Positions 3,763 to 64,000 of a stretch of 64,000 bases of DNA are shown one piece after another. This DNA comes from Domibacillus indicus. GTDB lineage: Bacteria > Bacillota > Bacilli > Bacillales > Domibacillaceae. The DNA is taken from assembly GCF_023715895.1 (NCBI RefSeq), contig NZ_JAMBOO010000021.1, positions 1 to 64,000 on the forward strand, read 5' to 3'. Each line of letters starts with the position of its first letter. The stretch's first letter is position 1. The notes under the pieces are model-generated. The model did no database searches. It was not told the DNA's origin and saw nothing but the letters and a program-made list of their open reading frames with translations. The position numbers and the translations under genes are program-made.

Positions 3763-3863
3763 ATAGGAATAGGTAATGTTCCACTTCGACATTACTCGTT
3801 AAGTGTACTTATTTTCCCCTCCTTCACACCGTACGTGATAGTTTCCCATCATACGGCGTTCCA
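3763..3863 (-). ncRNA. Group II intron domains V and VI
   Basis: Domain V (3825-3861) is a 34-37-nt hairpin with a GGAAAC apical loop region and paired CGCCGTATGATG / TATCACGTACGG arms. Domain VI (3763-3824) is a longer hairpin closed near CACTT/AAGTG; it should hold the bulged branch-point A a few nucleotides from the 3' end. The exact bulge was not resolved by eye. Confidence 0.8.
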
Positions 3864-5690: not shown

Positions 5691-6404
5691 ATCTCTGTTG
5701 GGACAACTCCTTTCTTTAAGAAGTTGCTTTCCCTGTCTCACCAGAAAAACAGAGTTTTTGACCGAATTTATTTAACTTTAAAATCCATGACTAATGCCTA
5801 TCCCTCCACAGCTTATTATCACTGCTTCATAGGTACTGTGGCATCACTCTCGTCAGAATAAAGCAGCTTATAACCTAGTCGGTTTTTCGACTGCACCTAT
5901 CCCCGGCCTATGGGTTTTAACTTAATTAGTGATAGTTTCTAACTTTCCACGTTCCAAGTATTCCCGCTTATTATGACACTTAGGTGTTTCCTTTGAGCCT
6001 GTTAGCTTGATACCATCATCGCTTGGTATAAGGATTTTCATAACGCAAAATCTTACTCATCCTCACTAACGTACCGTATTCGGTACACCTTTATCTTCTC
6101 AGATAAAGATTACACTTATAGACCCGTACATTCAGAAATTCGTCAGTATCTCTTGATACATTCTCACCGTATGTCACGCCACCCGACTACTCTGATCTAC
6201 AATTCCCTAGATTTCTTGTAGATTTCGCCGACTTCACCCTGCTTTTAACAAGTCCGTTATAGCCCACTTTCCTGCTAAAGGGAGTATTAGTGTGAAAGTT
6301 TCAGCCTAGCATGAAGGCTTTCATTCCTTTCAAGGATTACTTAGTTTTCTAATAAACCATCCCACCTATCATTTCTTCAAGGATTTCAGGTTAACGTGTC
6401 GCAC
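5691..6404 (-). ncRNA. Group II intron 5' RNA domains I-III, non-coding
   Basis: About 710 nt with no supported ORF, as expected for the folded 5' half of a group II intron. The last six exon bases (ATGCCA, the IBS1 position) could pair with TGGTAT at 6010-6015 or TGGCGT at 6176-6181 on the minus strand, each allowing one G-U pair. Either may be EBS1. Covariance folding would be needed to choose. Confidence 0.75.
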
Positions 6405-31357: not shown

Positions 31358-31849
31358 TTATGAAGAACAAGCCCGCTGAACAGACCGGATGATGCCGCCA
31401 TACCCTGTGCACCGGCAAAGATTGCCCGAAAAGGCTTCCTGAATCGCCGCTTCATTCGGCTTTGGATTTGATTCAAGCAGGCATTTTGCCGCCATGACCA
31501 TGCCCGGTGTGCAATAACCGCATTGAAAGCCGCCTTCTTCGAGAAATGCTTCTTGAATAGGATGCACTCCGTTTTGATCAGAAAGCCCTTCAACCGTTTC
31601 CACCGAAGCCCCTTCAAGCTGATAAGCGAGTGTCAGGCACGAAACAGACAGTTTACCATTGATCAAAACCGAACAGGCTCCACAGCGTCCGATGCCGCAT
31701 GAAATTTTTGTGCCGGTTTGACCAAGCTCATTTCGCATTAAATCAACAGCTCTCATAACAGACGGAACGGTTAATTGAACAGGCTTACCATTTAACTGAA
31801 AGGACAGCTCTATCACTCCAGCGCCTGCTTTTTCAGGATTGATTTTCAT
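31358..31849 (-). CDS. pucE: Xanthine dehydrogenase, [2Fe-2S] subunit
   Basis: 163 residues. N-terminal plant-type ferredoxin cluster (CGIGRCGACSVLINGK...C) and C-terminal helical domain with the second cluster (CGYCTPGM, CRCTGY), the standard arrangement in molybdenum hydroxylases. It passes electrons between the Mo and FAD subunits. ATG 31849 (GGGGTGTCCTGT upstream) overlaps the pucD end by 17 nt. Confidence 0.93.
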   Translation of the reverse strand: MKINPEKAGAGVIELSFQLNGKPVQLTVPSVMRAVDLMRNELGQTGTKISCGIGRCGACSVLINGKLSVSCLTLAYQLEGASVETVEGLSDQNGVHPIQEAFLEEGGFQCGYCTPGMVMAAKCLLESNPKPNEAAIQEAFSGNLCRCTGYGGIIRSVQRACSS

Positions 31850-34067
31850 ACAGGACACCCCTTTCCATCGACTGCAGCACAGCCTCCGGCTTTACCGGCA
31901 GACGGCTGACCCGAAAGCCGATTGCATCGTAGATCGCATTGGCAATTGCCGGCGCTACAGCTACCGTTCCAATTTCTCCAACACCCCGCGGGCCGTAATG
32001 ATCTCCAGGAGGAAGCGTCTCAATCGCTTCAAGCTCCAGGTCAAACGGTACATCTTGAATGCCTGGAACCAAATAAGAATCGAAGTTTTCTGTCGCATAC
32101 TGTCCTTCTGTCATCACCACATCTTCCATTAAAGTATAGCCAAGCGCCATTACGCCGCCGCCCTCAATTTGCCCCCTATAGCCCATTTCGTTTACAACAG
32201 GGCCGGCTGCTGTAGACTGATGCAGTCCGGTGACTTTTATTCTTCCAGTTAAAATATCAACCTCTGCCTGGGCCACTACACCGCTGTATGTGTATAAGTA
32301 GTGAGCCGAGTCTATTGCGTCCGGTGAAACCGGAAAATCAAACTGGGTGGAAACCACAATCGGCTCTTTGCCGGCTGCAAGAGATTCAAAGGAAAGCACG
32401 CATTTTCCATTCTTCCAAACACCGCCCGGTCCAATCGAAAGCACATTCTCTTCTGCACCCGTTTTTTGGGCGGCCCGTGCAAGCACCTGCTTTATAAAAG
32501 ACCCTTTTAACCGCTGAAGTGAATGCCAGACCATACTTGTTCCGCGTGAAGCGGTAGTGGAACCGGACGAAGGAACGAGAGCCGTATCTCCAATGACAAT
32601 GGAAAGGTCTTCTTTTCGGCATCCTAATTCTTCTATTGTCACCGCTTCAATCACAGCCAGAATTCCCTGCCCCGCTTCTTCAAATCCAAAGGCAATTTCA
32701 ATCTTTCCATTTTCTTTTAAAGAAAGCCGCCCGCCGGCAGGGTCCATTCTCCCAAAGCCAAGCCCGCCGCCGTGCATCGTTACAGCCATGCCGATACCGG
32801 TCCGCTTCCACTCGCTCGCTTTCGGCATCTGCTGCTTTTTCGCCTGGTATACTTGAGCTGCCGACTCTAATACCTCTAAAGCACCATTTGTCTGGACAAT
32901 CCGCTGCCCGAGCGGTCCAAGGTCCTGTTCATGGCGGATATTAAGCCGCCGCAGCTCCAGGGCATCCATCCCGATTGCAGCAGCCAGCCGGTCCATCTGC
33001 CCTTCCAATGCAAAAGTAATCTGATTGCCTCCAAATCCACGAAACTCCCCGGAAACACCATTGTTTGTAAAAACAGAGACACCCTTTGTGTCTACTGCCT
33101 CAATCATGTACGGGCCACATGCGTGCTCAACAGCGAAGTCTAAAATTGCCGGTCCTAATGTAGCGTAGGCCCCTGTATCGGCTGTAATCGTTGTTTGATG
33201 GGCAAGCAGCCGCCCATTTTGATCGACGCCGGTTTTCATTGTAATGCTCATCGGGTGCCGTTTAATGCTTGAACGCATGGATTCCTGCCTTGTTTGGTGA
33301 ATTTTCACCGGCCTGCCTGTTGCAAGCGCAAGCAGCGCCCCATACGGCTGAATATTCAATTCATCTTTTCCACCGAATGAGCCGCCCATCGGACTGGAAA
33401 TAATCCGAATTTTTTCTTCCGGCATGCCTAAAATACGAGATAATTGAAACCGGTCTTTAAAACCGTGCTGCGTACCGACATATACTGTCAGCGCCCCGTC
33501 TTTTTCAGGCACGATAACGCCGCCTTCTGTTTCCATATAAGCATGAAGCTGCCGGGGAACTTCATATGTTTCTTCTACAATGTTTACGCATCGCGAAAAT
33601 GCTGTTTGGATATCGCCTTTTTGAAAGCCGGCACGGTGAAGGATATTGCCGCCTGGGTGAAGGAGAGGAGCCGACTTGGCCAATGCTTTTTCTGGACTGT
33701 CCACTACAGGAAGCGGTTCATAGTGCACCTCGATCAGTTCAAGCGCTCGTGCAGCAATTTCTACCGACTCTGCAGCAACAGCTGCAACCGCATCTCCCAC
33801 ATACCGAACTGTATCTTTACATAAAACCGGCTGATCCGGGGTAACGATGCCAAATCCGTTTAAGGCAGGCACGTCTTCGTGGGTAATAACCGCCTGTACA
33901 CCTGGCAGCTGACGGGCTTTCTCTGTGGAGAGGGAGAGGATACGGGCATGAGGGTAAGCGCTTCTTAGCACTTTTGCCCAGAGCATCTCTGGAAATGTAA
34001 GATCCGTTAAATATTTTAAGCGGCCTGTTACTTTCTCTTTGCCGTCCGGCCGAATTTTTTTCTTCAT
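31833..34067 (-). CDS. pucD: Xanthine dehydrogenase, molybdenum-binding subunit
   Basis: 744 residues. It oxidises hypoxanthine and xanthine to urate at a molybdopterin centre. Recognisable parts: the small N-terminal domain IRPDGKEKVTGRLKYLTD, the Mo-domain SSPMGGSFGGKDE, GEFRGFGGNQITFALE and the C-terminal catalytic Glu in GPRGVGEIGTVAVAPAIANAI. ATG 34067 with AAAGGAGATTGGCT is favoured over a TTG 6 nt earlier. Confidence 0.94.
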   Translation of the reverse strand: MKKKIRPDGKEKVTGRLKYLTDLTFPEMLWAKVLRSAYPHARILSLSTEKARQLPGVQAVITHEDVPALNGFGIVTPDQPVLCKDTVRYVGDAVAAVAAESVEIAARALELIEVHYEPLPVVDSPEKALAKSAPLLHPGGNILHRAGFQKGDIQTAFSRCVNIVEETYEVPRQLHAYMETEGGVIVPEKDGALTVYVGTQHGFKDRFQLSRILGMPEEKIRIISSPMGGSFGGKDELNIQPYGALLALATGRPVKIHQTRQESMRSSIKRHPMSITMKTGVDQNGRLLAHQTTITADTGAYATLGPAILDFAVEHACGPYMIEAVDTKGVSVFTNNGVSGEFRGFGGNQITFALEGQMDRLAAAIGMDALELRRLNIRHEQDLGPLGQRIVQTNGALEVLESAAQVYQAKKQQMPKASEWKRTGIGMAVTMHGGGLGFGRMDPAGGRLSLKENGKIEIAFGFEEAGQGILAVIEAVTIEELGCRKEDLSIVIGDTALVPSSGSTTASRGTSMVWHSLQRLKGSFIKQVLARAAQKTGAEENVLSIGPGGVWKNGKCVLSFESLAAGKEPIVVSTQFDFPVSPDAIDSAHYLYTYSGVVAQAEVDILTGRIKVTGLHQSTAAGPVVNEMGYRGQIEGGGVMALGYTLMEDVVMTEGQYATENFDSYLVPGIQDVPFDLELEAIETLPPGDHYGPRGVGEIGTVAVAPAIANAIYDAIGFRVSRLPVKPEAVLQSMERGVLYENQS

Positions 34068-34088
34068 AGCCAATCTCCTTTCCCATTT

Positions 34089-34943
34089 TTATCGGTCAGA
34101 TCGCAAAGCCGCTAACAGCAGATTGGCTGCGACGATGCGACGGTAATCCGCTGAGGCGAACACATCACCGATCAAAGCCGATTCTTCTTTGATACTTTCT
34201 GACAGTGACGCCAGCACATCATCCGTCAGTTCCTTTCCAATGAGCTCTCTCTCACACATCTTCAAACGACGCGGTGTGTTTACTCCGCCGCCCGCCACCA
34301 TCCGAATTTCTTTAATGGTCTGCTCATCTGTCATTTCTCTGTACATGGCAACCGTCACAACAGATGGAATAAACGCTTCTCTCCGTCCGACTTTCCGAAA
34401 AAAACAGCGCCCTTTTATAGGAGAAGAAACCGTAATATCCGTTAAAATGGCGGATGCTGCCGGAGATTCCTGCTCACTTACATAATCATATATCCATTCA
34501 GACCGAATGCCGTTTTCACAAAACCACGAAAGGCGCGCATCAAGTGCCAGTAAGACCGGAATGGCATCACCGACGCCATAAAGGATATTGCCGCCGATTG
34601 TACCCCGGTTACGCACAGCTGGCGAGGCAATGGTGCTGATCGCTTCTGATAAAACCGGGCACTTTTCTTTTACAAGCGGATGATTCCGGCACGTTTCCAG
34701 GTCGGTCAGCGCCCCTATTCTGATCGAACCGTCGACCGTTTCCTCAATGTCTGCGAGTTCCCGAATCCCTTCCAGGCTGATTAAATGAGGAGGAAAGGAT
34801 AGGCCCTGCTCCCGCTGCATTTGCATAAGTGTTCCACCCGCAATAAACCGCGATATTCCGTCAAGCTCTTTCTTTAAAGACCTCGCTTCCTCCAGACTCT
34901 GTGGCTGCCAGACAGATGTTGGCACCGGCATTTGCATTGTCAT
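34089..34943 (-). CDS. pucC: Xanthine dehydrogenase, FAD-binding subunit
   Basis: 284 residues, CoxM/PucC family. FAD contacts: FIAGGTLMQM near residue 35 and SPAVRNRGTIGGNILYG. It hands electrons to NAD. ATG 34943 follows GGGAGGGGATGGA. The first 83 nt overlap the 3' end of pucB in another frame, an unusually long overlap (see findings). The conserved N-terminus (WQPQSLEEA) lies in the overlap, so the start cannot be moved past it. Confidence 0.92.
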   Translation of the reverse strand: MTMQMPVPTSVWQPQSLEEARSLKKELDGISRFIAGGTLMQMQREQGLSFPPHLISLEGIRELADIEETVDGSIRIGALTDLETCRNHPLVKEKCPVLSEAISTIASPAVRNRGTIGGNILYGVGDAIPVLLALDARLSWFCENGIRSEWIYDYVSEQESPAASAILTDITVSSPIKGRCFFRKVGRREAFIPSVVTVAMYREMTDEQTIKEIRMVAGGGVNTPRRLKMCERELIGKELTDDVLASLSESIKEESALIGDVFASADYRRIVAANLLLAALRSDR

Positions 34944-35556
34944 TCCATCCCCTCCCGGCCACTTGTTTATAGTCCTGCATCGTATCAATATCAAAAAAAG
35001 AACGGGATTCTTGGCAATCAATCATTCGTCCGTGCCGCGCAAAAGAAGGCTGCTTCAGCAAACTGCCCGCTCCCCGGTCTCCCTTTAACTCCTGCAGCAC
35101 AGGGAAACAGCCGTTCGAGAAAAGAACAGGCGGGCGCGGAATACCATCCAGACAAGCCGCCACAAAAGGAGCCTTTGTTTTTTTGTAGGTGTGGACGATT
35201 TGATTGATTAATTCCACCCTGGTAAACGGCTGGTCTGCCAAAAGAATCACCGCTGCCTGCGCATTCATTTGTTCTGCGGCCCTCAAGCCAAATGAAAGTG
35301 TATGCGCCTGCCCGCGGCTGGCTTCATCACAGACGGCATACGACCAATTCTCTTGTTTAAAAAAAGCGGGCCCAATCCAGCCGGCCCGGCTCTCTCTCTT
35401 TCCCGCCACAATAACATGATCCAGTGCCGAGGAAAGAGCCGCATCGAGCGAAGTACTGCCAATCGTGGCACCGCCAAGCGGCAGCGCCAGCTTATCGCAC
35501 CCCATCCGAACACTATTTCCGGCAGCAAGCAAAATACCAACAATCGGCCTGCTCAT
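34861..35556 (-). CDS. pucB: Molybdenum cofactor cytidylyltransferase-like protein
   Basis: 231 residues of the MobA/MocA nucleotidyltransferase fold: VGILLAAGNSVRMGCDKLALPLGG (GTP/CTP loop), DEASRGQAHTLSFGLRAA, ILLADQPF (metal Asp) and GIPRPPVLF. It probably prepares the cytosine form of molybdopterin and assists XDH maturation. It extends about 30 residues past the usual end of such proteins, into pucC. ATG 35556 overlaps the pucA stop (ATGA). Confidence 0.88.
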   Translation of the reverse strand: MSRPIVGILLAAGNSVRMGCDKLALPLGGATIGSTSLDAALSSALDHVIVAGKRESRAGWIGPAFFKQENWSYAVCDEASRGQAHTLSFGLRAAEQMNAQAAVILLADQPFTRVELINQIVHTYKKTKAPFVAACLDGIPRPPVLFSNGCFPVLQELKGDRGAGSLLKQPSFARHGRMIDCQESRSFFDIDTMQDYKQVAGRGWNDNANAGANICLAATESGGSEVFKERA

Positions 35557-36557
35557 AAACAAGCTGCTTCCCGCAGCTGAATGGAATGGCTCACTTGAAT
35601 CAGCTGAGCGACAATACTAATCGCAATTTCTTCGGCTCCCTGCGCTCCAATTGACAAGCCGGCCGGAGAAGCAATCCGTGAAGGAATGGCATCAGCCCCA
35701 AACAAGCGGGCTGTTCTTTTTCGGGAACCGAGAATACCAAAATACCGAAGCTCCTGCTCCCTTAACGCCTCAATCAGCTCCCGGTCCCGTTTAAAGTTAT
35801 GCGTCATCACGACCACACAGTCTTCTGGTTTTAAAGCGATAGAAGAAAGCACTTCGTTCGGAAAACCGACCATGTGTTTTTCAGCATCAGGAAAATGAAA
35901 AGCCGAACAAAACGCCGGGCGCCAGTCGGAAACGGTAACCGAAAAGCCAGCGGCCGCTGCGAACGAAACGAGCGGCCGCGCATCTGGTCCTGCCCCAAAT
36001 ACAACAAGCCGCCGCTTTGGATGAATTTTGTGTACATACACTTCACTGTCGAGCGCTTTACTAAAAAACATGCCACGCTCAATAACCCGGCAGTCGTCTG
36101 GTACTTCCCCCTCCCACTGACCAAACGCACGTCCCGAATCGGGAATAAAAAGGTAACCGGGGCGGACGCCGCGCTTTTTAATCATAAAAACGGACTGTCC
36201 GGACCTTAGCACTTCTTTTAACTGCAATAGGTGGGCCGTATACTCTTCATCCAGCCGTTCTGTCCATACATGAATAACCCCGTTGCAGCCCGAGCCCTCT
36301 CCCCAGGAAAAATCATCCTCACCGCGCATATCGTATACAAATTCGCCGTACGGCTGATCCACTGTTTTCAGCCGTTCATTCAAATCTTCTTCCAGGCAGC
36401 CCGCACTAAGCAGGCCGACCTGCGTGCCATCCGGTTTAAACAGCATCGCTGCTCCTTCTTTTTTATAAGCAGAGCCTGCGACTTTAACGACCGCCGCCAT
36501 TACACCACCAACAGTGGAGGCATCCATGGCATCAAGCAATTCATGAATATCTTCCAT
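35553..36557 (-). CDS. pucA: XdhC-family xanthine dehydrogenase accessory protein
   Basis: 334 residues. XdhC/CoxI N-terminal domain (AVVKVAGSAYKKEGAAMLF, LSAGCLEEDL, GCNGVIHVW) and a Rossmann domain (LVVFGAGPDARPLVSFAAAAGF, VVMTHNFKRDRELI, YFGILGSRKRT). Such proteins bind and hand over sulfurated Mo cofactor to XDH. ATG 36557 with TGGAGGGAAACGAT; longer in-frame starts lack ribosome sites. It overlaps pucB by 4 nt. Confidence 0.9.
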   Translation of the reverse strand: MEDIHELLDAMDASTVGGVMAAVVKVAGSAYKKEGAAMLFKPDGTQVGLLSAGCLEEDLNERLKTVDQPYGEFVYDMRGEDDFSWGEGSGCNGVIHVWTERLDEEYTAHLLQLKEVLRSGQSVFMIKKRGVRPGYLFIPDSGRAFGQWEGEVPDDCRVIERGMFFSKALDSEVYVHKIHPKRRLVVFGAGPDARPLVSFAAAAGFSVTVSDWRPAFCSAFHFPDAEKHMVGFPNEVLSSIALKPEDCVVVMTHNFKRDRELIEALREQELRYFGILGSRKRTARLFGADAIPSRIASPAGLSIGAQGAEEIAISIVAQLIQVSHSIQLREAACL

Positions 36558-36704
36558 ATCGTTTCCCTCCAGTGTATAGTCCAAAAAAGGGCACTGGTTC
36601 AAAAAAATCACAGCCCCCTTCTCACTTCTTCTATTCTTAAATTGGGCTGATGAAAGAGGCGGGTCCGCCCAGCCGTCCTTGAGTTTCATTTAAAACCCGG
36701 ATGG

Positions 36705-37217
36705 TCACGGCTGGCATGCGCTGGGTTCTTCCTGGATGACAATGTCTTCAATTCGGAATCTGGCTATTTTAAACACTTCTGCTAAGGCTGTTTCAAATTC
36801 CGTTTCCTTATCGTTTTGAAGACGCTGCTTCATCTGAACGCAGATTTCTTCTTTTGTTTTGCCTTGCACTGCCATGATAAAAGGAAAAGAGAACTTTTGG
36901 GTGTATGCCTCATTTAACAGAGAAAACTGATTAAATTCCTCTTTGGACAAAGAAGCCAGCCCGGCAGCTTTCTGCTCTTTCACAGAAGCGTCGGTCATTT
37001 TCATATTTGCCCCAAGATTCGGATGGTTTCGAAGCAGAGCCAGCTGATCGGAACGAGACGCTTCCTGAACAAAAGCGGTCATCTTATCACATAGAGTTTG
37101 CACAGACTCAAATGGACGATCCCGCACCGCCTGTTCCGCTACCCAAAGTGAATGTTCAAATACGCTGCCGAAGTGCTGGACGAACATCACTTTTTTCATT
37201 TCGTTTACTGCTTTCAT
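36705..37217 (-). CDS. OHCU decarboxylase, stand-alone
   Basis: 170 residues. It converts 2-oxo-4-hydroxy-4-carboxy-5-ureidoimidazoline to (S)-allantoin, the last step of urate breakdown. Family motifs: FGSVFEHSLWVAEQA, the catalytic-His RNHPNLGANM, SVKEQKAAGL and the FPFIMAVQGKTK segment. In B. subtilis this domain is the N-terminal part of PucL, fused to uricase. Here the frame ends at 36705 and the 147 nt before pucA contain no uricase remnant. ATG 37217 has GAGGG upstream. First gene of the puc operon. Confidence 0.9.
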   Translation of the reverse strand: MKAVNEMKKVMFVQHFGSVFEHSLWVAEQAVRDRPFESVQTLCDKMTAFVQEASRSDQLALLRNHPNLGANMKMTDASVKEQKAAGLASLSKEEFNQFSLLNEAYTQKFSFPFIMAVQGKTKEEICVQMKQRLQNDKETEFETALAEVFKIARFRIEDIVIQEEPSACQP

Positions 37218-37366
37218 AGTCAGCACTTCCCTCACGCCCTTTCCTAACTTAAATGTGTAATAAATAATAACATATGATTAGTTTACAAGGAAAATTATGT
37301 GTTGTCACTGGCTTAAATGACCAAAATATTAGATTTTTTTCTTCTTTTTCACAATTTATTAATAAT

Positions 37367-37389: not shown

Positions 37390-37414
37390 TATAAATTTTT
37401 AGGGAGTGTTTCAG

Positions 37415-39031
37415 TTGAAATTACAAACCTTGCTTGCCCACGCTCCTTTTCAAGATATTCCATTAGCTGCGGGCGCCAGAGGGATGGCAAATGATATTAC
37501 GAATGTGACGATGATGGATGCTCCGGATATTCTCCCTTATTTAAAGTCGAACGACCTGCTCGTGACAACCGGTTATCACGTTAAAGATAAGCCAGGCGAG
37601 CTGATCAGCTTGATTGAGCAAATGGCCCAGAAAAACTGCGCTGCCCTTTTTATTAAAACAAAGCGTTTTTTCGGCCACCTTCCAAAAGAAGCAATCCAGC
37701 TCGCAGATCAGCTTGGGTTTCCGATTGTTGAAATTCCTGAAAACTGGTCACTCGGTGAAACCGTCAATCAAATGCTTAATATTATTTTAGATAAGAGAAC
37801 GAGCGAGCTTCGGGGCGCAATCGAAACGCACAAGCTGTTTTCAAGCCATATCATAAGCGGAAAAGGATTAAATGCGCTGCTTGCAAACTTAACAGAGCTT
37901 ACCAGCCACCAGGCTTTTTTATCGACAGTGTACTTTTCTGCCATTGCCGGCGATCATTCGCTGGCTGAAGCTTTTTTGCCGTTTAAGAAATGGGCGTCTA
38001 AGCACGGCTCTTTTCTGCCGGCCGGCTCTGCTTTTACCATGTTCAGCACGCTGGACCAGAAAGAGAGCTACACACTGTTTCCCGTTTACACACACGAGAA
38101 AAAAGCTGCCCTGCTTTTGCTCAAAGGCTTTGTTTATCCAACAGAGCAGGTGAAACTTCTTACGATCGAACAGGCACTCAATGTGATCTCATTTGAGCTG
38201 TTGAAAGAAGAAGCCGTAAAACAGTCTACCCGCCGTATTCGCAATGAGTTTTTCTCCAATTTTTTAGATGACGCTTTTTCAAGCGAAGAGGAAACGATCA
38301 GCCGTGCAAAAGAATTCGACCTGCCTTTAAAACAAAAATACGTGTGCGCGGTTGGCCGAATCGATGCACCGGAAGAAGAATGGTCTTATTACACGAACCA
38401 GAAGGAACTGGATGAAGTCTATTATTTTTTCGAAAAAGAACTGCACACAATGGATATTCCCTGCGATTTATTTACAAAAGGAGACACCGTAATCATTCTG
38501 TCAAAAGTACCCGATCATATGAAAGACACCCAGTTATTTACGGCTTCTTTTTTAGAAAAGCTGCAAAGCCGGCTCAGTCGGGAACATAACATGACCATTT
38601 CTTTTGGTGTCAGTCATCTATGCTCGTCTCTCCTATTTGTCCGGCAGGGGTATAAAGAAGCGCGCGATGCCTTAAAAACAAACCGGCTGTCCAGCGGCCC
38701 CTCCTCCATTCACTTCCACCGGACAAAGGATGTAAACGAGCTGCTGCGGATGCTCCCGCCAAAAGACTTAAGCCAGTTTTATAAACACACAGTTCAGCAC
38801 TTAAAGCTGAATAATCTAGAAGAAGAAAGGTCACTGCTGGAGACACTGTTTGTTTATATGGAAAGCCATTGCCATATTTCCGAAACGGCCAAGCGGCTGT
38901 TTGTCCACCGTAACACAGTTGTATACCGGCTGGAGAAATGTGAAGAGCTGCTCGGTATTTCGTTGAAAGACCCCGATTTTTCCCTGCAGGTCCGCCTCGC
39001 CCTCCGTATCAAACACCTGCTGAATGCTTAA
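37415..39031 (+). CDS. pucR: PucR-family transcriptional regulator of purine catabolism
   Basis: 538 residues in the standard order: N-terminal PucR sensor domain (LLVTTGYHVKDKPGELISLIEQMAQKNCAALFIKT), a GGDEF-like CdaR middle domain and a C-terminal HTH_30 (HISETAKRLFVHRNTVVYRLEKCEELLGI). In B. subtilis PucR activates puc genes and senses allantoin-type intermediates. It diverges from the puc operon. I choose TTG 37415, 8-9 nt after AGGGAG; a GTG at 37406 is too close to it. Confidence 0.92.
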   Translation: MKLQTLLAHAPFQDIPLAAGARGMANDITNVTMMDAPDILPYLKSNDLLVTTGYHVKDKPGELISLIEQMAQKNCAALFIKTKRFFGHLPKEAIQLADQLGFPIVEIPENWSLGETVNQMLNIILDKRTSELRGAIETHKLFSSHIISGKGLNALLANLTELTSHQAFLSTVYFSAIAGDHSLAEAFLPFKKWASKHGSFLPAGSAFTMFSTLDQKESYTLFPVYTHEKKAALLLLKGFVYPTEQVKLLTIEQALNVISFELLKEEAVKQSTRRIRNEFFSNFLDDAFSSEEETISRAKEFDLPLKQKYVCAVGRIDAPEEEWSYYTNQKELDEVYYFFEKELHTMDIPCDLFTKGDTVIILSKVPDHMKDTQLFTASFLEKLQSRLSREHNMTISFGVSHLCSSLLFVRQGYKEARDALKTNRLSSGPSSIHFHRTKDVNELLRMLPPKDLSQFYKHTVQHLKLNNLEEERSLLETLFVYMESHCHISETAKRLFVHRNTVVYRLEKCEELLGISLKDPDFSLQVRLALRIKHLLNA

Positions 39032-39063
39032 AAAAGCCCGGGAGCTGTCCCTGGCTTTTTTAT
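39031..39063 (+). terminator. pucR terminator
   Basis: Stem AAAAGCC-C-GGGA / TCCC-T-GGCTTTT followed by more T, directly after the stop. The next 165 nt (to 39230) show no gene or recognisable signal. Confidence 0.75.
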
Positions 39064-39230
39064 ATGCAGTTAATCCTAATGTTGGTCCGTTTTTTTCGTC
39101 TAGAGAAAGCGAAATGGCTCTTCATTGGACAACAGTTTTTAGCCTTACACTTCCCTCCTGATCATTCACTTGAATGAATCGTGTTTTTCGCAATACAGAA
39201 AAAACAATGTAAGGTTTTCTTCCACTTTAG

Positions 39231-39259
39231 TTGAAGCGTCTCCCGCTTCCTCTTATTCT
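39231..39259 (+). promoter_or_regulatory. Sigma-A-type promoter of the riboswitch-deaminase unit
   Basis: TTGAAG (39231-39236), a 17-nt spacer and TATTCT (39254-39259). This would start RNA a few nucleotides before the riboswitch aptamer. Confidence 0.5.
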
Positions 39260-39273
39260 AATGATAAGATACC

Positions 39274-39344
39274 TTTTTCGTATATCCCCAGCGATACGGG
39301 CTGGGGGTCTCTACTTGGGACCGTAAATTCCAGGCTACGAAAAA
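39274..39344 (+). ncRNA. Purine (guanine-class) riboswitch aptamer
   Basis: Three-way junction matching the purine riboswitch. P1 TTTTTCGTA / TACGAAAAA (39274-39282 with 39336-39344); J1/2 beginning T at 39283 (U22 equivalent); P2 CCCCAGC / GCTGGGG with L2 GATACGG; J2/3 GTCTCTAC, keeping the U47, U49, C50, U51, A52 and C53 equivalents; P3 closed by the conserved L3 CCGTAAA. The specificity nucleotide (39335, C74 equivalent) is C, the guanine/hypoxanthine type, not the U of adenine switches. The preceding base is G where xpt has A73. Confidence 0.9.
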
Positions 39345-39379
39345 TCAGCATGGGCGCTGGTTTTTTCGTGGCTTTTTTT
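39334..39379 (+). terminator. Riboswitch-controlled terminator, exclusive with aptamer P1
   Basis: GCTACGAAAAATCAGC (39334-39349) pairs with GCTGGTTTTTTCGTGGC (39356-39372), about 16 bp with one bulged T and a T-G pair, followed at once by T7 (39373-39379). The 5' arm consumes the J3/1 bases and the whole 3' strand of P1. Ligand binding should therefore block the terminator and allow transcription. Confidence 0.8.
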
Positions 39380-39399
39380 ATTGACTGGGAGGGATGGAG

Positions 39400-40737
39400 A
39401 TGGGAAGTTTACTTATTAAAAATGCTCAAATCGTAACGATGAATGCGCAGGAAGAGATTATAAACGGAGATATTCTCATTCGGGACAGCCGGATTGAAGC
39501 AGTCAGACCGGCTTTGGACGAAACGCCGGCTGACCGTGTGATTGACGCTTCAGGCCGAACCGTGATCCCCGGCTTTGTTCAAACCCATGTGCACCTATGC
39601 CAAACACTGTTTCGCGGCAAAGGTGATGACCTTGAATTGATGGACTGGCTGAAAAAGCGGATTTGGCCGCTTGAAGCGTCCCATGATGAAGAATCTGTTT
39701 ATTATTCGGCGATGCTTGGGATCGGCGAGCTTCTGCAAAGCGGCACAACCACGATCGTCGACATGGAAACCGTTCATCATACCGATTCTGCATTTCGTGC
39801 GATTGCCCAAAGCGGTATTCGTGCGCTCTCCGGTAAAGTTATGATGGATAAAGGCAGTGAAGTGCCGCTTGCCCTGCAGGAAAACACAGCAGCATCCATC
39901 CAAGAAAGCGTGGACCTGCTGGAGAAATGGCATATGTACGACAGCGGGCGTATCCAATATGCTTTTTCACCGCGCTTTGTCGTTTCCTGTACAGAGGAAT
40001 TATTGAAAGAGGTACAAAAACTGTCCGTCCACTACAACGTTCATGTGCATACCCATGCTTCTGAAAACAGGGGGGAAATCGCTATTGTTGAGCAGGAAAC
40101 CGGGATGCGCAATGTTATATATCTCGATCATCTCGGTCTTGCCAACGAACGGCTTATCCTGGCCCACTGCATCTGGCTGGACGAAGAAGAAAAGCGGATT
40201 ATCCGGGAGAAAGGTGTGCATGTCAGCCATTGTCCGGGCTCGAACTTAAAGCTTGCATCCGGTATTGCCGATGTTCCTGAGCTGCTTGATGCCGGTTCAT
40301 CCGTAAGCCTTGGAGCAGACGGTGCTCCGTGCAACAACAACCTCGATATGTTCAATGAAATGCGTCTTGCCGCCTTGATTCAAAAACCGATCCACGGTCC
40401 AACCAGCATGAACGCCCGCACCGTTTTCCGCATGGCTACAATCGGCGGCGCCCGGGCTGTTGGACTGGGGCATGAAATCGGCAGTATTGAAGCCGGAAAA
40501 AGGGCAGATCTGGTGATGTTAAACTTAAATCATTTCCATACCTTCCCTTCTTACGATGTAGATCCCATCTCACGCATCGTTTATTCGGCTACCCGTGCAG
40601 ATGTGGAAACGACCATTGTCGACGGGCGAATTGTCATGGAAAACGGCATGATGAAAACGATCGACAAAACGACTGTGCTAAGAGAAGCAGATGCATCAAT
40701 TAAACGGCTGCTCAAAAAAACAACAATCATGCATTAA
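39400..40737 (+). CDS. Amidohydrolase, probable purine (guanine-type) deaminase
   Basis: 445-residue metal-dependent hydrolase of the Atz/Trz/MtaD/guanine-deaminase branch. Metal ligands: FVQTHVHLCQTLFRG (HxH), VHTHASENRGE, ILAHCIWLD and the catalytic Asp in SLGADGAPCNNNLDM; a late RADLVMLNL strand closes the sandwich domain. Guanine, 8-oxoguanine, 5'-deoxyadenosine/SAH and triazine deaminases share this scaffold. The guanine-class riboswitch directly upstream and the adjoining xanthine dehydrogenase genes argue for a guanine-like substrate giving xanthine. ATG 39400 has GGGAGGGATGGAG; the ATG at 39394 is too close to it. Confidence 0.87.
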   Translation: MGSLLIKNAQIVTMNAQEEIINGDILIRDSRIEAVRPALDETPADRVIDASGRTVIPGFVQTHVHLCQTLFRGKGDDLELMDWLKKRIWPLEASHDEESVYYSAMLGIGELLQSGTTTIVDMETVHHTDSAFRAIAQSGIRALSGKVMMDKGSEVPLALQENTAASIQESVDLLEKWHMYDSGRIQYAFSPRFVVSCTEELLKEVQKLSVHYNVHVHTHASENRGEIAIVEQETGMRNVIYLDHLGLANERLILAHCIWLDEEEKRIIREKGVHVSHCPGSNLKLASGIADVPELLDAGSSVSLGADGAPCNNNLDMFNEMRLAALIQKPIHGPTSMNARTVFRMATIGGARAVGLGHEIGSIEAGKRADLVMLNLNHFHTFPSYDVDPISRIVYSATRADVETTIVDGRIVMENGMMKTIDKTTVLREADASIKRLLKKTTIMH

Positions 40738-63167: not shown

Positions 63168-63251
63168 TACCGGCGGCCGGGGTCGAACCGGCACTCCCGT
63201 GAAGGAACTGGATTTTGAGTCCAGCGCGTCTGCCAATTCCGCCACGCCGGC
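63168..63251 (-). tRNA. tRNA-Leu (CAA)
   Basis: 84-nt class II tRNA. Acceptor GCCGGCG / CGCCGGT, D-loop GGAATTGGCAGACG, anticodon loop CTCAAAA with CAA, TPsiC GGTTCGACCC. CCA is not encoded. Confidence 0.95.
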
Positions 63252-63258
63252 ATATACA

Positions 63259-63333
63259 TGGAGCGGAAGACGGGATTCGAACCCGCGACCCCCACCTTGG
63301 CAAGGTGATGTTCTACCACTGAACTACTTCCGC
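63259..63333 (-). tRNA. tRNA-Gly (GCC)
   Basis: Acceptor GCGGAAG / CTTCCGC, anticodon loop TTGCCAA (GCC), GGTTCGAATC T-loop, encoded CCA. Confidence 0.96.
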
Positions 63334-63481
63334 ACTTGAACAGGATGTTCTAGGTTCTCCGTTGCACACAGGACGTGTGCGCTTTTAGAAGAAGTTCCTC
63401 TTTCATGTAAGACTTTGTAAGAAGTCTTTTATCAAATATACAGGCTGGCGAAAGTGAATACTTTCGTCAGCCTGTAAAAGA
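63334..63481 (-). other. 148-nt spacer inside the tRNA operon with hairpins
   Basis: No tRNA is recognisable. A strong hairpin (ACAGGCTGGCGAAAGT / ACTTTCGTCAGCCTGT, about 63440-63476) and a smaller one (GCACAC / GTGTGC, about 63364-63380) lie between tRNA-Leu(TAG) and tRNA-Gly. There is no minus-strand T-run, so it is more likely a processing spacer than a terminator. Confidence 0.55.
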
Positions 63482-63563
63482 TGCGGGTGAAGGGACTTGA
63501 ACCCCCACGCCTTGCGGCGCCAGATCCTAAGTCTGGTGCGTCTGCCAATTCCGCCACACCCGC
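63482..63563 (-). tRNA. tRNA-Leu (TAG)
   Basis: Class II tRNA. Acceptor GCGGGTG / CACCCGC, anticodon loop CTTAGGA (TAG), variable arm GCGCCGCAAGGCG, no encoded CCA. Confidence 0.95.
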
Positions 63564-63573
63564 TAAGTATAAA

Positions 63574-63648
63574 TGGCTGGGCTAGAAGGATTCGAACCTT
63601 CGCGTGACGGAGTCAAAGTCCGTTGCCTTACCGCTTGGCTATAGCCCA
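63574..63648 (-). tRNA. tRNA-Gln (TTG)
   Basis: Acceptor TGGGCTA / TAGCCCA, anticodon loop CTTTGAC (TTG), discriminator G, encoded CCA. Confidence 0.96.
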
Positions 63649-63654
63649 TTTATA

Positions 63655-63731
63655 TGGGGCGATCGAGGGGAATCGAACCCCCGAATGTCGGAGCCACAAT
63701 CCGATGCGTTAACCACTTCGCCACGACCGCC
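63655..63731 (-). tRNA. tRNA-His (GTG)
   Basis: Acceptor GCGGTCG / CGATCGC with the extra G-1 pairing the discriminator C, anticodon loop TTGTGGC (GTG), encoded CCA. Confidence 0.96.
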
Positions 63732-63751
63732 ATTATATCATATTTTTTAAT

Positions 63752-63825
63752 TGGCAGGGGCAGTAGGAATCGAACCCACACTGGAGGTTTTGGAGACCTC
63801 AGTTCTACCTTTAAACTATGCCCCT
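63752..63825 (-). tRNA. tRNA-Trp (CCA)
   Basis: Acceptor AGGGGCA / TGCCCCT, anticodon loop CTCCAAA (CCA), encoded 3' CCA. Confidence 0.96.
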
Positions 63826-63830
63826 ATAAA

Positions 63831-63914
63831 TGGTGGAGGGGGGCAGATTCGAACTGCCGAACCCGAAGGAGCGGATTTACAGTCCGCCGCGTTTAGCCAC
63901 TTCGCTACCCCTCC
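63831..63914 (-). tRNA. tRNA-Tyr (GTA)
   Basis: Class II tRNA. Acceptor GGAGGGG / CCCCTCC, anticodon loop CTGTAAA (GTA), long variable arm, encoded CCA. Confidence 0.96.
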
Positions 63915-63942
63915 ATATGAAGAGAAAATTTCAAATGAAAAA

Positions 63943-64000
<58 letters not shown>

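Follow-up and report, generated by a model that had tools for sequence, protein, structure and literature searches.

The window analysed here is a stretch of 64,000 nucleotides from Domibacillus indicus, in which cmscan places a purine aptamer with its flanks at 39258-39357 of the plus strand, a member of the Rfam purine riboswitch family (RF00167) at 73.3 bits against a gathering threshold of 37 (E-value 4.5e-11). The aptamer lies directly 5' of a plus-strand gene (39394-40737) encoding an amidohydrolase, a probable guanine deaminase according to profile searches and sequence comparison; judged by eye, an alternative start at 39400 is better suited to the preceding GGGAGGG. Upstream are the gene for a PucR-type purine catabolism regulator (37406-39031, plus strand; PF07905 and PF13556) and, on the minus strand, the genes for xanthine dehydrogenase (XDH), its accessory proteins and an OHCU decarboxylase (31833-37235), of which only pucD and the OHCU decarboxylase score over their cut-offs. 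A consensus scan of 39000-39400 returned no promoter over threshold; by eye, TTGAAG at 39231 and TATTCT at 39254 (8 of 12 matches) would place a candidate RNA start just 5' of P1. Just 5' of the aptamer, at the place expected of a promoter, there is also a hairpin resembling a terminator, with a T-rich tail behind it (39233-39249, plus strand).

The segment 39274-39379 folds with -44.3 kcal/mol, compared to a mean of -26.7 kcal/mol (sd 3.35) for 200 shuffled sequences (z -5.25), and the aptamer has both P2 and P3 as well as the loop bases which form the kissing contact in the purine family. All its parts are on the plus strand, and its positions are given in what we take to be the xpt numbering. 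P1 comprises nine pairs between 39274-39282 (UUUUUCGUA; Rfam match and folding) and 39336-39344 (UACGAAAAA; folding), the latter strand being common to aptamer and terminator. J1/2 (39283-39285) contains U22, A23 and a U at position 24, and is followed by P2, with seven pairs and loop L2 (39286-39306; Rfam match and folding), by J2/3 (GUCUCUAC, 39307-39314), which contains U47 (39308), C48 (39309) and U51 (39312), and by P3 with loop L3 (39315-39333; folding), where position 54 (U, 39315) stands opposite position 72 (G, 39333); J1/2 and J2/3 were read from the sequence and the Rfam match. J3/1 (39334-39335; Rfam match and junction reading) consists of G73, an A in the guanine-I consensus, and C74. 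The latter is the ligand-pairing base of the purine family (PMC13374515), and our numbering agrees with that paper.

Thus, the contact bases of guanine-I aptamers are all present, namely U22 (39283), U47, U51 and C74 (39335), and the A73 and C54-G72 of that class are replaced by G73 and U54.G72. A first-pass annotation of this DNA had described the element as guanine-class, a description that holds for the four contact bases and has to be qualified at C48, G73 and the loosened 54-72 pair, which depart from the guanine consensus as they do in permease, XDH and FAD-dependent dehydrogenase aptamers; these departures, together with the U at position 24, go beyond what had been recorded there.

Folding places a terminator hairpin at 39333-39373 of the plus strand (-21.6 kcal/mol), with a U tract (U7) at 39373-39379; the consensus scan of 39000-39400 lists its core as 39339-39366, and no other plus-strand terminator-like site between aptamer and gene. 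Because the stem takes up G72, G73, C74 and the whole 3' strand of P1, terminator and P1 are mutually exclusive, and no separate terminator with an antiterminator using the P1 3' strand was seen on folding the leader. The first-pass annotation had claimed a single terminator reusing the P1 3' strand and the pocket bases, which is what we find, and the ON-type layout recognised there is confirmed. Growing transcripts were folded from 39268, comparing the unconstrained fold with the aptamer fold by energies that leave out tertiary contacts and rates. The aptamer is the best fold, or within 0.8 kcal/mol of it, until the transcript reaches 39367, one pair of P1 being lost from 39361 on; the unconstrained fold is ahead by 3.1 kcal/mol at 39370 and by 9.6 to 11.0 kcal/mol from 39373 on, and the predicted switch from aptamer to terminator fold falls between 39367 and 39373. 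A nanomolar ligand, as expected from guanine-I affinity, would supply about 9.6-11 kcal/mol. The earlier caveat that a core hairpin might persist in the bound state proved real: with P1 closed, a hairpin of 5 bp with U6 can form at 39345-39366 of the plus strand; it is weak (-5.3 kcal/mol), and some leak is possible.

The conservation of this arrangement was assessed in the best 80 of 367 loci of protein relatives from a species-genome collection, using a covariance model built from 18 purine aptamers, with the window and 12 of these 80 loci contributing to it. The model detects an upstream aptamer at 65 of these relatives, including a degenerate one in L024 (23.5 bits), and returns no match upstream of the gene in the other 15. 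In the 54 distinct rows, 94.2% of the cells pair and 15 of the 21 pairs changed on both sides, with none of 500 shuffles as high, these covariation counts being favoured by an alignment fitted to the model; both P2 and P3 covary among the relatives. Under a strict test, a terminator overlapping P1 is present in 60 of the 65 aptamers, against 26 of 650 dinucleotide-shuffled downstream sequences, and since the rows are related species the 60 positives do not amount to 60 independent cases. The exclusion of the terminator by a closed P1, which marks a transcriptional ON switch, is thereby found both on folding the window and in these 60 relatives, the five failures being L024, L030, L042, L049 and L060. 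Leaving L024 aside, C48 occurs in 56 and G73 in 61 of the 64 relatives, the other 3 having A73; position 24 is variable (29 U, 34 A, 1 G), and a C54 opposite G72, where the window has U54, occurs in 9. In the degenerate element (L024 4838-4912, Paenibacillus validus), P3, P1 and the downstream hairpin with its U run are recognisable, and the P2/junction region is not.

To relate layout to gene function, 72 aptamers from 15 genomes were compared, comprising 6 of the D. indicus genome and 66 of the 67 (G003:C1:5668509 was left out) of 14 other genomes, which were picked for their aptamer variants and hence non-randomly. Genes were labelled with our own sequence patterns; 12 of the 72 are unlabelled, among them pbuG of D. 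indicus (L003), which was named by eye. The strict test finds the ON-type terminator at all genes for PRK07228-type deaminases (6/6), XDH (2/2), guaC (1/1) and adenine deaminase (1/1), at part of those for FAD-dependent dehydrogenases (4/6), NCS2 permeases (3/13) and EamA-type transporters (1/2), and at 1 of 24 aptamers of xpt (0/13), guaA (0/3) and purE (1/8, the positive being L192). It is absent at the nucleoside transporter (0/1), 8-oxoguanine deaminase (0/2), PRT (0/1) and dioxygenase (0/1) genes, and present at 3 of the 12 unlabelled ones. This test has false negatives, as it misses both 8-oxoguanine-type aptamers, L241, which resembles guanine-II, L242 from the pair resembling xanthine-II, and 2 of the 6 aptamers of FAD-dehydrogenase genes. 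Within the D. indicus genome it marks guaC and the deaminase, and not purE, xpt, pbuG or the nucleoside transporter gene; a loose version also flagged xpt, purE and pbuG, with 4 P1 bases paired. The ON response predicted by the first-pass annotation thus gains support from comparison, given the 60 relatives with a P1-overlapping terminator and a layout that appears to track degradation genes. The guaC element of D. indicus (L001 1501-1600; G000:C136:101155-101254) combines a U48/A73 guanine-type aptamer with an ON-type terminator and precedes the gene for a GMP reductase (TIGR01306), and a second guaC-like gene (L257, G353) displays, by eye, a similar ON arrangement.

Matches to the combination of C48 and G73 number 33, the window included, and come from 31 genomes out of 398 belonging to the same class as the window. 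The genes behind them encode an FAD-dependent dehydrogenase (17, from one family), the deaminase (12 including the window, 11 assigned by BLAST and one by genomic place), an NCS2 permease (2) and an XDH operon (2), so the pattern is not exclusive to the deaminase gene. A73 is present in all 24 xpt, purE and guaA aptamers read, with C54-G72 in those whose junction could be read by script. G73 also occurs in NCS2 permease aptamers without the ON layout; of the 13 permease aptamers sharing this junction, 10 are without it. Furthermore, a deaminase orthologue in G149 (L232) lies behind an A48/A73 aptamer with the ON layout, from which we conclude that G73 is dispensable for the control of this gene. 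Across most rows of the 15 genomes, G73 accompanies a loosened 54-72 pair and A73 accompanies C54-G72, with L217 carrying G54-C72 and A73; a co-evolution of 54-72 with position 73 is possible. The FAD-dependent dehydrogenase-like genes preceded by C48/G73 aptamers (for instance L152 5792-7222, and loci L092-L108) come from 17 genomes of one family, and their product has no NCBIfam family over cut-off. At two loci (L149 11408-19901 and L150 5208-15934; genomes G149 and G373), an NCS2 permease gene and an XDH operon are divergent, each with its own window-type aptamer.

The product of the downstream gene is 98% identical to that of the nearest named record, Domibacillus sp. PGB-M46, and passes the cut-off of NCBIfam PRK07228 (5'-deoxyadenosine deaminase; 741 against 522 bits), a name that is the annotation of the members of this family and no proof of substrate. 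The cut-offs for guanine deaminase (TIGR02967, 262 against 375.4 bits) and for the NCBIfam 8-oxoguanine deaminase (309 against 532 bits) are missed. The protein has the motif HVHLCQ, in which Gln70 occupies the position of the catalytic Gln after the metal-binding HxH; according to the excerpts of PMC13054789, a Gln mutant of a guanine-type hydrolase is inactive, and the Gln is 98.4% conserved in the cluster of E. coli GuaD. The three best PDB matches (one MTA/SAH deaminase and two amidohydrolases by name) have Met at this site, and 7ww2, named 8-oxoguanine deaminase, has Gln. This residue does not fix the substrate, because it is shared by a haloarchaeal protein of the same NCBI name and by a second amidohydrolase of D. 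indicus (L088). Regarding other guanine deaminases in the genome, none was found: no TIGR02967 match is over cut-off, that of the window protein included, three of the four PF00383 matches are, by eye, TadA, dCMP deaminase and cytidine deaminase, and the fourth, a 365-residue frame, is from its length guessed to be RibD. At only 7 of the 80 loci (six Domibacillus and L060) do puc-type genes lie no more than about 5 kb from the deaminase gene, and synteny gives no wide support for the substrate. Our best guess is that the amidohydrolase of the window is a guanine deaminase, a reading favoured by Gln70, by the failure to find another guanine deaminase in the genome and by the adjacent XDH genes, while the NCBIfam family name and the score under the TIGR02967 cut-off speak against it. 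The second, COG0402-like amidohydrolase (L088 176-4060, contig C44) falls under every NCBIfam cut-off shown, and is flanked by two genes which by eye resemble N-carbamoyl amino acid or allantoate hydrolases.

Several known systems share parts of this arrangement. In the pbuE layout, a terminator using the P1 3' strand is prevented by a closed P1. The same blocking is seen in the window; the pbuE/add adenine riboswitch, however, has U at position 74, where the window has C, and an adenine-type aptamer with U74 (L224, G459) precedes an adenine deaminase gene in the same layout. The guanine-I riboswitches (RF00167; xpt, purE and guaA type) have in common with the window the three-way junction, the kissing loops and U22, U47, U51 and C74, and differ in A73, C54-G72 and an OFF layout; at salvage and synthesis genes they are OFF switches according to the excerpts of PMC9295807. 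The first-pass annotation had opposed guanine OFF switches to adenine ON switches, a contrast that is incomplete, as guanine-II and xanthine-II riboswitches, built on the same scaffold, are predicted to be ON in the same excerpts (PMC9295807). There, guanine-II aptamers are described as keeping U51, having a one-base insertion in J2-3 and lying at PRT genes, and xanthine-II aptamers as ON-like elements of degradation genes with U51G and larger insertions; a 2'-deoxyguanosine variant is also described and an 8-oxoguanine variant mentioned (PMC9295807). L241 matches the description of guanine-II, and L235 and L242 that of xanthine-II, all three with CCAGGC preceding the P1 3' strand, a motif absent from the window. 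With guanine-II the window shares U22, U51, C74 and the predicted ON direction (PMC9295807), L241 having, moreover, a G before C74. Regarding the J2-3 insertion, U54 of the window could be either paired with G72 or unpaired, and J3-1 would read G-C, or G-G-C if 54-72 is open. A guanine-II identity was rejected, since the window has nothing like the CCAG insertion in J3-1 of L241; its gene, moreover, is for a deaminase and not a PRT. Likewise, the window resembles xanthine-II in its ON layout at a purine degradation gene (PMC9295807), but it has U51 where L235 and L242 have G51, and the rejection of this identity rests on the absence of both U51G and the J3-1 insertion.

The present analysis shows the anatomy, the mutual exclusion on folding, the conservation and the gene association; which ligand is bound, in which direction the switch works in vivo and what the enzyme deaminates are inferred. 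The aptamer would be transcribed first and is predicted to be the best fold until about 39367. Binding of the ligand, most likely guanine, via C74 would keep P1 closed and its 3' strand unavailable, so that no terminator could form and RNA polymerase would read into the deaminase gene; without ligand, 39367-39373 would capture the P1 3' strand and the resulting terminator would stop transcription. The element is very probably an ON switch, and its ligand is likely to be guanine. The full combination, a guanine-type ON riboswitch responding to guanine before a guanine deaminase gene, is held with fair confidence.

The departures from guanine-I at C48, G73 and U54.G72 could alter which ligand is bound. 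A broader proposal, possible rather than probable, is that G73 aptamers form an unrecognised class of the purine scaffold, structurally between guanine-I and guanine-II, with the last P3 pair loosened and A73 replaced by G, whose ON-layout members run a degradation set (deaminase, XDH, permease and FAD-dependent dehydrogenase) and whose selectivity would differ from that of guanine-I, perhaps through discrimination against xanthine, which the deaminase produces. The G73/54-72 pattern may also offer a glimpse of the origin of the guanine-II and xanthine-II pockets. An unlikely alternative retains the ON mechanism and assumes that the G73/C48 pocket favours an oxopurine other than guanine itself (hypoxanthine, xanthine or some modified guanine). 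The frequency of G73 at the deaminase gene, against 0 of 24 xpt, purE and guaA aptamers, speaks for it, as does the degradation and transport set of genes behind C48 and G73; its contact bases are nonetheless those of guanine-I, and A73 precedes the same deaminase gene in three relatives and in L232. C74, in addition, suits guanine at least as well as other oxopurines.

If, instead, the hairpin left with P1 closed terminated transcription in the bound state too, the element would respond little; alternatively, it might act as an OFF switch like xpt. Besides this hairpin and its U6, the flagging of the D. indicus xpt, purE and pbuG aptamers by the loose test and the OFF behaviour of guanine-I at salvage and synthesis genes in the excerpts of PMC9295807 could be read in this sense. 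Against this, the terminator itself uses the P1 3' strand, with no separate terminator and antiterminator pair, and under the strict test the window aptamer is marked and those of xpt, purE and pbuG are not; such behaviour is very improbable.

Members of the 8-oxoguanine class are ON switches before 8-oxoguanine deaminase genes in Paenibacillaceae, and share with the window the predicted ON direction, a deaminase gene and C74. Seven proteins exceed the 8-oxoguanine deaminase cut-off (in 118 genomes of one family), and two of them (L158, 2931-3005, minus strand; L161, 1276-1350, plus strand) have an upstream aptamer with A73 and GGGGGCUCUAC in J2/3, and thus without U47; these two are probable members of the class. 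That the window element belongs to it, with a gene for 8-oxoguanine deaminase, is the least probable reading of all: it would account for an ON layout at a COG0402-type deaminase, for the occurrence in Paenibacillus of close relatives of both the gene and the aptamer, and for a Gln70 common to an 8-oxoguanine deaminase, but we reject it on a protein below the family cut-off and a pocket unlike that of L158 and L161, the comparison being with these two aptamers rather than with the published consensus, and on a genome (G462) that has both kinds, that of L158 and L161 at its 8-oxoguanine deaminase gene and the window kind at a PRK07228-type gene.

Regarding a guanine-type ON switch responding to guanine, our search of the open-access literature found no report of an ON switch of guanine-I type preceding a gene for guanine deaminase. 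ON members of the scaffold have already been published; the novelty, within the open-access literature searched, lies in an ON layout joined to the contact bases of guanine-I, in the presence of both layouts in one genome, and in the G73 sub-type. If correct, this interpretation would mean that a single bacterium uses guanine sensors of one type with both regulatory signs, a natural test of one aptamer coupled to opposite outputs; it would also suggest a substrate for the family at present called 5'-deoxyadenosine deaminase, and give a clue to the regulation of the FAD-dependent dehydrogenase that has no NCBIfam match over cut-off.

Elsewhere in the window, two group II intron matches lie on the minus strand, at 6172-6349 (group-II-D1D4-5) and 3763-3861 (Intron_gpII), and a tRNA gene cluster occupies 63168-64000 of the same strand, with a Bacillaceae-1 RNA at 63337-63404.
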